Shown piece by piece: positions 33,390 to 35,267 of a stretch of DNA of 49,080 nt. Source of the DNA: Myxococcota bacterium (GTDB lineage: Bacteria > Myxococcota_A > UBA9160 > SMWR01); contig JBCCEW010000036.1 in NCBI GenBank assembly GCA_039030075.1, positions 1 through 49,080 of the forward strand, written 5' to 3'. Each line of letters begins with the position of its first letter. Within the stretch, counting starts at the first letter, position 1. Made by a program: the position numbers and the translations under genes. The notes beneath the pieces are model-generated. The model was not told where the DNA came from. It saw nothing but the letters and a program-made list of their open reading frames with translations, and made no database searches.

Positions 33390-33797
33390 ATGCCCTATCG
33401 AGTTCTCAGCGGGGTCGTTGGTGTGCTGCTCGTGCTCGGAGGGGGCGTCTTTCTCATGGGCTTTCTCAGCGCCATGGGACCGGGGGGTACCGTGGACGGG
33501 TCACTCTCCCCGCTCGGCCCGAACGGTGTCTACTTCATGGCATTCACGGCGTGCGGATTGATCGGATGGGGTGGCGGCCTGATCGGAGTCGCACGCGAAC
33601 CCGCGCTCGGACGCACGGTGGGCACCTTCACGATCGTCGCGATGATCCTGATGGCCTTCTACCGGTTCGTGGGCTGGTTCCTCGGTGACTTTGCCCATCT
33701 CGGCGTACTGCCTCGCGTCGAGGCATGGATCTTTCTCGCGATCGCGCTCGGCTTCGTGTGGTTGCGACCGCCTGCTCCAGAGAGGAACGCCGCATGA
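33390..33797 (+). CDS. Four-helix membrane protein coupled to the selenocysteine redoxin
   Basis: A 135-residue integral membrane protein with hydrophobic segments at about 3-28, 47-69, 74-98 and 109-126. I do not recognise a family with confidence; it resembles small DUF4345-like membrane proteins. GGAGGGAG precedes the ATG at 33390. The last codon and stop overlap the start of the redoxin gene (GCATGA), so the two proteins are made together. The redoxin is membrane-anchored, so the pair probably works at the inner membrane. Confidence 0.75.
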   Translation: MPYRVLSGVVGVLLVLGGGVFLMGFLSAMGPGGTVDGSLSPLGPNGVYFMAFTACGLIGWGGGLIGVAREPALGRTVGTFTIVAMILMAFYRFVGWFLGDFAHLGVLPRVEAWIFLAIALGFVWLRPPAPERNAA

Positions 33798-34399
33798 CCC
33801 GTTGGATCTGGACGTTTGCCATTCTCGTCATCGCAGCGCTGACGATCATCGCGCCGAATACGGAGTTTGGTCGCCGGGGTAGCGACGCAGCAGTCCGCAG
33901 CGATGCGCCGTCGGCGTGGAAGGCCGTCGGTCAGTCTCTCCCGGAACTCTCGCTGCAACACCTCGACGGAACACCCTTCGACCTCTCGAGTCTCGCGGGG
34001 CATCGGGTGCTCCTCACCTTCGAACGCAGCGTGGATTGGTGACCCTTCACCAAGGCGCGGCTGGTTCAGCTGCGGGATGCATTCGAGAGTCACCCGGATG
34101 TCCACATCGTTTGGGTCATGGCGGACAACCAGGTGACACCCAAAGCACTCAGCTACATCGACGGCATGGGGCTACGCCAGCGCGTCCATTTCGCGATGGA
34201 TCCCGAGAGCCGTGCGATCGATGGGCTCGGGCTGCGAAGGCCGAACCCCGAGCCCATCGAGGAAGGGGTTCCCCACCCTACGACATACCTCATCGATCGA
34301 GAAGGCACCGTGCGATTCGTCGACGTGCGCGAGGACTTCCGACTCTGGCTCGATCCGAGCGCGATCCTCAGCGCGCTGGCTCGACTGCCCACCCGTTAG
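33794..34399 (+). CDS. Redoxin-domain selenoprotein, with in-frame TGA read as selenocysteine
   Basis: Reading from ATG 33794, the frame meets one TGA at 34040-34042 and is then open to a normal stop at 34399, giving 201 residues with Sec83. A signal anchor (about 4-21) is followed by a thioredoxin/AhpC-fold domain. Around the TGA the protein reads VDW-U-PFT: the TGA takes the place of the redox Cys of DWCPFC-type peroxiredoxin-like proteins, and Thr fills the second position. HPTTYLID near 161-168 supplies the cis-Pro loop. A bSECIS-like hairpin lies 13 bases after the TGA. A nonsense mutation is the alternative, but the intact downstream domain argues against it. Confidence 0.86.
34056..34074 (+). 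promoter_or_regulatory. Probable bacterial SECIS hairpin
   Basis: CGCGGCTG (34056-34063) pairs with CAGCTGCG (34067-34074) across eight base pairs including one G-U, leaving a GTT loop. The loop starts 21 bases after the TGA at 34040, inside the spacing usual for bacterial SECIS elements, and the G next to the loop with the following U's suits SelB binding. It lies inside the coding region, as bacterial SECIS elements do. Confidence 0.72.
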
Positions 34400-34496: not shown

Positions 34497-35267
34497 CTAG
34501 GCGCGGCGGCGGCTGCGCATGGCAAGCGCGAAGACGCCCGCGAGAAGCTGGAGGGATGTCGCGGGCTCGGGAACGGGGACGAGTTCCTGCCAGAGCGCGA
34601 TGTCGTTGCCCTGGCTGAAGAGGTTCGCGACCCCGCCCGGTGTGACAACGACGAGTTCGCTCGCGAGCACCTCGCTTTCGTAGCTCCAGCCTGCGGGCAG
34701 ATCGAGCCCGCCAAGGCCGCCCACGACGGTCGGGTCGTAGGTGGCCGTCGACGCTCCGTCCATCGAGAAGAGCACGAACTCGGTGCCGCTCGTGTCCGTG
34801 ACCGTGTGCAGGACGCTCCCGGCGTCGTAGGTGAGGGTGGTGTTTCGGGCGACCTGGGGGCGAGCGAACGCGCCCTGGGCGCCGAATCCGATGACCGTCC
34901 CGCTGAGCACCCGAGCGATGAACTCGTGGTCGTCGCCAGCGATCTCGGGGACCAAATCCAGCGAGGCGGGGGTTCCCAGCGGCGGCGCCGGCGCGATACT
35001 GACCGTCTCGTCCGCGATGAGGTATCGCGGGTTGATCGCCGTCGAGTTCTTCTCCCAGCTCGGCCCGGGCAGGGGCGCCGCGAGGTACTGCTCGAACGTG
35101 CAGTTGCAGAGGTAGACGTTCCGGGCGAACGGGTTCTCGCCCGTCAGCTCGCGGAGTTCGGGGTTGAGCGTCAGCGCCGAGGCGGAGCCGGGGAGCCCCC
35201 CCACCAGGAGGGCCGGTGCGAGGAGGAAGGCGGCGACGATGGAAACGAGTCGAAGCGGGAGCTTCAT
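34497..35267 (-). CDS. PEP-CTERM-sorted secreted protein
   Basis: A 256-residue exported protein: signal peptide (about 1-31, ending ASA), a beta-rich middle of about 200 residues without a recognised domain, and a C-terminal VPVPEPATS motif followed by a hydrophobic helix and an Arg cluster (RSRRRA). This is the PEP-CTERM signal recognised by exosortase. It is divergent from the TetR gene at 35361, which has a perfect inverted repeat in the spacer. Its function is unknown; the fold is likely a surface or matrix protein. Confidence 0.87.
   Translation of the reverse strand: MKLPLRLVSIVAAFLLAPALLVGGLPGSASALTLNPELRELTGENPFARNVYLCNCTFEQYLAAPLPGPSWEKNSTAINPRYLIADETVSIAPAPPLGTPASLDLVPEIAGDDHEFIARVLSGTVIGFGAQGAFARPQVARNTTLTYDAGSVLHTVTDTSGTEFVLFSMDGASTATYDPTVVGGLGGLDLPAGWSYESEVLASELVVVTPGGVANLFSQGNDIALWQELVPVPEPATSLQLLAGVFALAMRSRRRA

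Follow-up and report, generated by a model that had tools for sequence, protein, structure and literature searches.

The window analysed here is a 49,080-nucleotide stretch of DNA from a Myxococcota bacterium (contig JBCCEW010000036.1). It carries two overlapping genes, one for a small membrane protein and one for a redoxin, the second of which contains an in-frame TGA that is almost certainly read as selenocysteine (Sec). The features of the locus are as follows:

33390–33797, + strand: partner gene, encoding a 135-aa four-helix membrane protein with no Pfam family; its TGA stop overlaps the redoxin ATG
33794–34399, + strand: putative Sec redoxin gene, 201 aa with Sec83; N-terminal membrane helix at residues 2–22, AhpC-TSA domain at 45–175
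34040–34042, + strand: TGA predicted to encode selenocysteine, codon 83, in the context D-W-U-P-F-T; supported by TGA/Cys homologues and the Sec machinery
34056–34074, + strand: bacterial SECIS-like hairpin, with an 8-bp stem and a 3-base loop, GTT, starting with G, 13 bases after the TGA

The redoxin frame runs from an ATG at 33794 to a TAG at 34397–34399, and W-U-P-F-T forms residues 82–86 of the read-through product. The original prediction described a redoxin gene interrupted by a single TGA at 34040 and open for 119 more codons; the interruption and the open frame are as described, but the sense codons past the TGA number 118, the figure of 119 including the stop. It was also expected that standard annotation would cut the gene in two, and a mechanical list of open reading frames does break it into 33725–34042 and 34118–34399. 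The read-through product matches the Pfam families AhpC-TSA (E = 1.8e-14) and Redoxin (E = 2e-9), both above their cut-offs. For AhpC-TSA (PF00578) the score is 54.1 bits against a cut-off of 26, and this family is matched by 31 of 31 members.

The redoxin has an N-terminal hydrophobic helix (residues 2–22), a linker and a thioredoxin-fold domain. Its AF2 model has a mean pLDDT of 84 and a pTM of 0.77; in a fold search of the PDB the best match was ResA, with thiol peroxidase (Tpx) and the 1-Cys AhpE also among the closest. The predicted thioredoxin fold and the Pfam gathering score place the protein in the AhpC-TSA/redoxin superfamily, and P162 lies in the expected cis-Pro loop, which agrees with the thioredoxin-fold sequence and cis-Pro loop that had been proposed. 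Its topology by the positive-inside rule is ambiguous, with one N-terminal Arg set against RRG and acidic residues after the helix.

Residues invariant in 31 aligned proteins are P50, G59, ERS77–79, DWUP81–84, T86, K87, Q113 (past the next strand), P162, D177, R179 and W185. At the active site they form the cluster E77 R78 S79 x D81 W82 U83 P84 x T86 K87 x R89, and the motif UP[FY]T is invariant in the family. No other cysteine occurs in 28 of 29 Sec-containing members, and the remaining one has a single Cys in the membrane helix. This leaves no way to form an internal selenenylsulfide in the catalytic domain, and with no internal resolving thiol the Sec would be reduced by an external thiol or would act in a state needing none. 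Neither this absence of other cysteines nor the membrane partner formed part of the original prediction.

On the minus strand, at 34497–35267, the window encodes a protein whose C-terminus, VPEPATSLQLLAGVFALAMRSRRRA, resembles a PEP-CTERM sorting signal; a Pfam search gave no match for its body.

Distribution of the family and the selenocysteine machinery

A profile search covered 379 genomes of the phylum, 91 from the window's own class and about 288 from elsewhere. Of the 91 genomes sampled in the class, 34 have a redoxin orthologue; among the about 288 others there was none. Their identity to the window redoxin is 45–67%. Homologues with Cys or Sec at residue 83 had been proposed as a check, and both were found: 31 genomes have TGA at the site and three have a Cys codon (G038, TGC; G075, TGT; G061, TGC), the in-frame TGA thus aligning with Cys in homologues, as is looked for in a selenoprotein gene. 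In a maximum-likelihood protein tree for which UxxC redoxins of the window's class served as outgroup, the UxxT proteins group into one clade (100/98). Because the Cys forms nest at three separate positions inside this clade, the sequences suggest a repeated change from Sec to Cys. In the tree the outgroup nearest to this clade, though on long branches, is a second small group of Sec redoxins, L059 and L096 (WUPPC and DWUPYC).

The assembly containing the window is MAG-like, with 5.76 Mb in 55 contigs and 95% completeness. All four components of the Sec machinery that the original prediction had named for checking were found in it by family search: tRNA-Sec with anticodon TCA (69.7 bits), SelA (517.2 bits), SelB (322.6 bits) and SelD (271.2 bits). 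The genome thus holds the complete set that accompanies a selenoprotein. SelA was also found in all 33 other redoxin-bearing genomes. The second candidate above the tRNA-Sec cut-off (L002) is actually a tRNA-Ser with anticodon TGA. As for the Cys-form genomes, G075 has two selA-like genes, and G061 has two incomplete selA matches, which lie on separate contigs and may be parts of a single split gene. TGA is also used as a stop: that at 33795–33797 ends the upstream gene overlapping the redoxin start, and TGA is the natural stop of many redoxin orthologues.

The same genome contains four other redoxin genes with an in-frame TGA, namely L057 (G000:C9:149914-150282; WUPFC), L058 (C37:6507-6971; WUPYC), L059 (C12:112110-112541; WUPPC) and L060 (C3:141307-141522; WUPYC). 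Three of the four share the exact hairpin geometry of the window redoxin, and none of L057, L058 and L059 reaches an NCBIfam cut-off. Further likely selenoproteins are a SelL-related redoxin (L061, G000:C6:137139-137483; GULFC), a peroxiredoxin (L063, C41:5277-5657; TPGU) and a glutathione peroxidase with one in-frame TGA (L121, C9:162288-162611). L058, together with L091–L095 and L097–L107, belongs to a separate family of Sec redoxins, 'R[GA]HWUPYCVAEL[RQ]RWE', which is widespread in the order and has UxxC in every copy read.

The hairpin and the reading of the TGA

The predicted 8-bp stem with a GTT loop shortly past the TGA was recovered at bases 14–32 after it. Its arms, CGCGGCTG (34056–34063) and CAGCTGCG (34067–34074), flank the loop GTT (34064–34066) and pair over 8 bp, including one G-U. 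A hairpin just 3′ of the UGA, with a small loop and a G near its start, is what is expected of a selenoprotein gene. Among all 973 TGA triplets in the window, on both strands, a comparable hairpin occurs at three places, and only that at 34040 lies in a homologous coding frame. One of the others sits in a frame that stops 4 codons past the TGA, while the other, near 2698 on the minus strand, is antisense to TetR and acyl-CoA dehydrogenase genes and has no Pfam match of its own. An Rfam scan of the window gave no match.

All 8 stem pairs are present in 28 of the 29 Sec loci examined, with compensatory changes; the Cys genes retain 5, 7 and 2 of them. In the three other Sec redoxins of the genome with WUPFC, WUPPC and WUPYC, the hairpin agrees with it in spacing, stem length and loop size. 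When their hairpins were aligned with the 29 UxxT hairpins, 99.6% of cells were paired and two-sided change was seen at 4 of 8 pairs, these three paralogue hairpins included. On those measures none of 500 shuffled alignments was as good, and slid controls had 32–45% of cells paired. Within the UxxT family itself, it is the loop-closing pair that changes on both sides: codon 90 is CTG where codon 92 is CAG, and CTC where codon 92 is GAG. The remaining two-sided changes are contributed by the paralogue hairpins.

Codon choice is stronger evidence for the hairpin than the two-sided pair changes. When 28 Sec genes were compared at 52 columns that are both conserved and degenerate, constraint was strongest at codons 89, 93, 88 and 90, and these are precisely the codons of the stem. 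All 29 of 29 genes use CGG for codon 89, against a usage of 0.29 elsewhere, and codon 91, in the loop, varies freely at its third base. Folding of single sequences against synonymous resampling gave a mean z of −0.9, which is weak; since the codons of R-L-V-x-L-R tend to pair anyway, the case for the hairpin rests on conservation across species. Judged by this comparison, selection acts on the hairpin as an RNA structure.

A true stop at 34040, leaving either a pseudogene or a truncated 82-aa product with the downstream frame as its remnant, would fit the codon itself and the way annotation pipelines would split the gene. However, the same TGA stands in 31 genomes at 45–67% protein identity with the downstream sequence intact, invariant residues lie beyond it too, and a pseudogene would not retain one stop and no others, all of which makes a stop exceedingly improbable. 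A sequencing or assembly error at 34040–34042 might be suspected because the source is a single MAG-like assembly of 55 contigs. The occurrence of the same TGA in independent genomes, and the presence of the full hairpin in TGA genes and its decay in Cys genes, leave this hardly any probability. The original prediction had itself raised the prospect of a different base in this codon, and a base-calling error cannot account for 31 genomes. Since identity to the window redoxin is 45–67%, the TGA that these genes share can be explained neither by faulty assembly nor by a recently formed pseudogene.

Genome-wide reassignment of TGA, for instance to Trp, has in its favour that a Trp codon adjoins the TGA. 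It is nonetheless a negligible prospect: TGA terminates the overlapping upstream gene and many orthologues and so is also a normal stop in this genome, homologues have Cys and never Trp at the site, and tRNA-Sec, SelA, SelB and SelD are all present. By sequence comparison, then, the gene at 33794–34399 can be taken with near certainty to encode a selenoprotein. The fuller account, in which this selenoprotein gene is the second of a two-gene unit and encodes a membrane-anchored redoxin with one Sec, is probably the best explanation of the locus as a whole.

Relation to known families

In a 2026 table of 119 prokaryotic selenoprotein families, PF00578 appears with UxxC, UxxU, TxxU and related motifs, and UxxT is confined to GPX-like, OsmC-like, Grx-like and DUF3179 families and to an entry named VPGUxxT (PMC13188914). 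Under that paper's own rule a different Sec motif counts as a distinct subfamily (PMC13188914). The original prediction held that the UxxT form is found in known Sec redoxins; the motif is indeed known, in GPX-like, OsmC-like, Grx-like and other selenoproteins, but these are not AhpC-TSA redoxins, so the UxxT redoxin is an unlisted variant. The literature searched held no UxxT AhpC-TSA selenoprotein, though coverage of subscription journals was incomplete and an earlier description is possible. NCBIfam 20 (June 2026) contains no fitting model: best scores are weak for all 31 members, and the window redoxin stays well short of every curated cut-off. The test remains valid when Cys stands for Sec, because the known SelL-related paralogue (L061), used as a control, passes at 149.7 bits against a cut-off of 120 for NF040769. 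The UxxT form of AhpC-TSA redoxin is absent from both NCBIfam 20 and the 119-family table, and it is probably new, as is its linked membrane protein.

Closest in kind are the Prx-like thiol:disulfide oxidoreductase selenoproteins (PF00578, UxxC/UxxU; PMC13188914), exemplified in the same genome by WUPFC, WUPYC and WUPPC. They share the AhpC-TSA domain, the SECIS-like hairpin and a Sec that follows Trp, precedes Pro and comes first in a CxxC-type site. That group has a second Cys or Sec in the motif, whereas here every member has Thr in that place (Thr86, invariant in 31), no other Cys is conserved, and the UxxT proteins form a separate clade (100/98) with an obligate membrane partner. The peroxiredoxin-like UxxS selenoprotein of an Olavius symbiont (cd02970; PMC13188914) has an AhpC/TSA-type fold and likewise a hydroxyl residue in place of the resolving Cys, Ser there and Thr here. 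Its listed Pfam family is AhpC-TSA_2 (PF13911) (PMC9312934), and a Pfam scan of the UxxT redoxins gave no match to that family.

Glutathione peroxidases (GPX) have a UxxT motif and a catalytic Gln that follows the next beta strand. The window redoxin shares the motif and the single active Sec, and its invariant Q113 is placed like that Gln, yet none of 31 members matches the GPX family of Pfam (GSHPx) at E ≤ 0.1, and the same genome carries a separate GPX with a TGA. The iodothyronine deiodinase family (T4_deiodinase) was likewise without a match at E ≤ 0.1 in 31 members. SelL-related redox proteins (NF040769) and ResA/TlpA belong to the same superfamily, but profile similarity is weak (20.3 and 23.8 bits, against cut-offs of 120 and 170) and their sites are CxxC or UxxU. 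Finally, typical peroxiredoxins have PxxxTxxC/U, with the peroxidatic residue second; here Sec comes first, in UxxT.

The membrane partner and possible functions

The gene directly upstream overlaps the redoxin gene by 4 bases (ATGA). Its product, modelled as four helices (pLDDT 89), could be assigned to no Pfam family and had no significant match in a PDB fold search (best E 1.0). It adjoins the redoxin gene upstream in 30 of 30 loci with enough upstream DNA, and is present in 34 of 34 redoxin-bearing genomes and in only one other of the 379, as a weak match (E = 2.8e-7). Its invariant residues include R69, R92, W96, D100, R109 and E111. No Cys is conserved in it, and electron transfer by a DsbD-type dithiol is for that reason unlikely. 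The linkage between the two proteins is the most useful clue to function, and their constant pairing, as read from the genomes, suggests an undescribed two-protein redox system. There is about an even chance that the four-helix protein serves the redoxin as a partner for membrane docking or substrate access.

In the proposed mechanism, SelB and Sec-tRNA would, with little room for doubt, decode the UGA at 34040 as selenocysteine, guided by the hairpin 13 bases downstream. The product would, with equal confidence, be a membrane-anchored thioredoxin-fold protein of the AhpC-TSA/ResA type, with Sec83 in U-P-[FY]-T as its sole chalcogen redox residue. The selenolate of Sec83 may be stabilised by Thr86 and the helix N-terminus, and may attack either a disulfide or a peroxide, the latter perhaps a lipid hydroperoxide. 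Since there is no internal resolving Cys, oxidised Sec83 would then be reduced by an external thiol or redoxin.

What this chemistry serves is a matter of more tentative judgement. The redoxin could be a membrane-tethered one-Sec reductase of peroxides or thiols, resolved by an external thiol, which is a plausible reading at somewhat under an even chance, and a function as a membrane-proximal peroxide reductase is likewise plausible without being probable. It might instead be a selenoprotein but no peroxidase: a mono-selenol thiol-disulfide isomerase or de-thiolating reductase like ResA, TlpA or MauD, which would work with the four-helix protein in the maturation of cofactors or proteins. The position of Sec, first in a CxxC-type site as in ResA/TlpA, speaks for such an isomerase or de-thiolating reductase, as do ResA/TlpA as best fold and profile matches, one family member that matches MauD at 4.5e-6, and the pairing with a small membrane protein, comparable to that of MauD with MauE. 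The partner, however, has no MauE match, and ResA/TlpA need both cysteines, the second of which is replaced by Thr86 in all members; the idea is a serious but rather doubtful one. The residual probability beyond the peroxide reductase and the mono-selenol enzyme falls to other functions. A more speculative and on balance unlikely proposal is a new membrane redox enzyme, in which the four-helix protein, free of conserved Cys, would present a lipid-phase substrate or electron donor, such as lipid hydroperoxides or quinol, to the tethered one-Sec redoxin.

The family adds a selenoprotein subfamily whose genes annotation pipelines would split in two. Near-perfect co-occurrence ties this selenoprotein to a membrane protein that has no family of its own, a functional handle that most predicted selenoproteins lack. 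Three separate Sec/Cys differences in one clade, with SelA kept and the hairpin degraded in the Cys genes, also amount to a natural experiment, and the question it poses is why Sec is retained without a resolving thiol.
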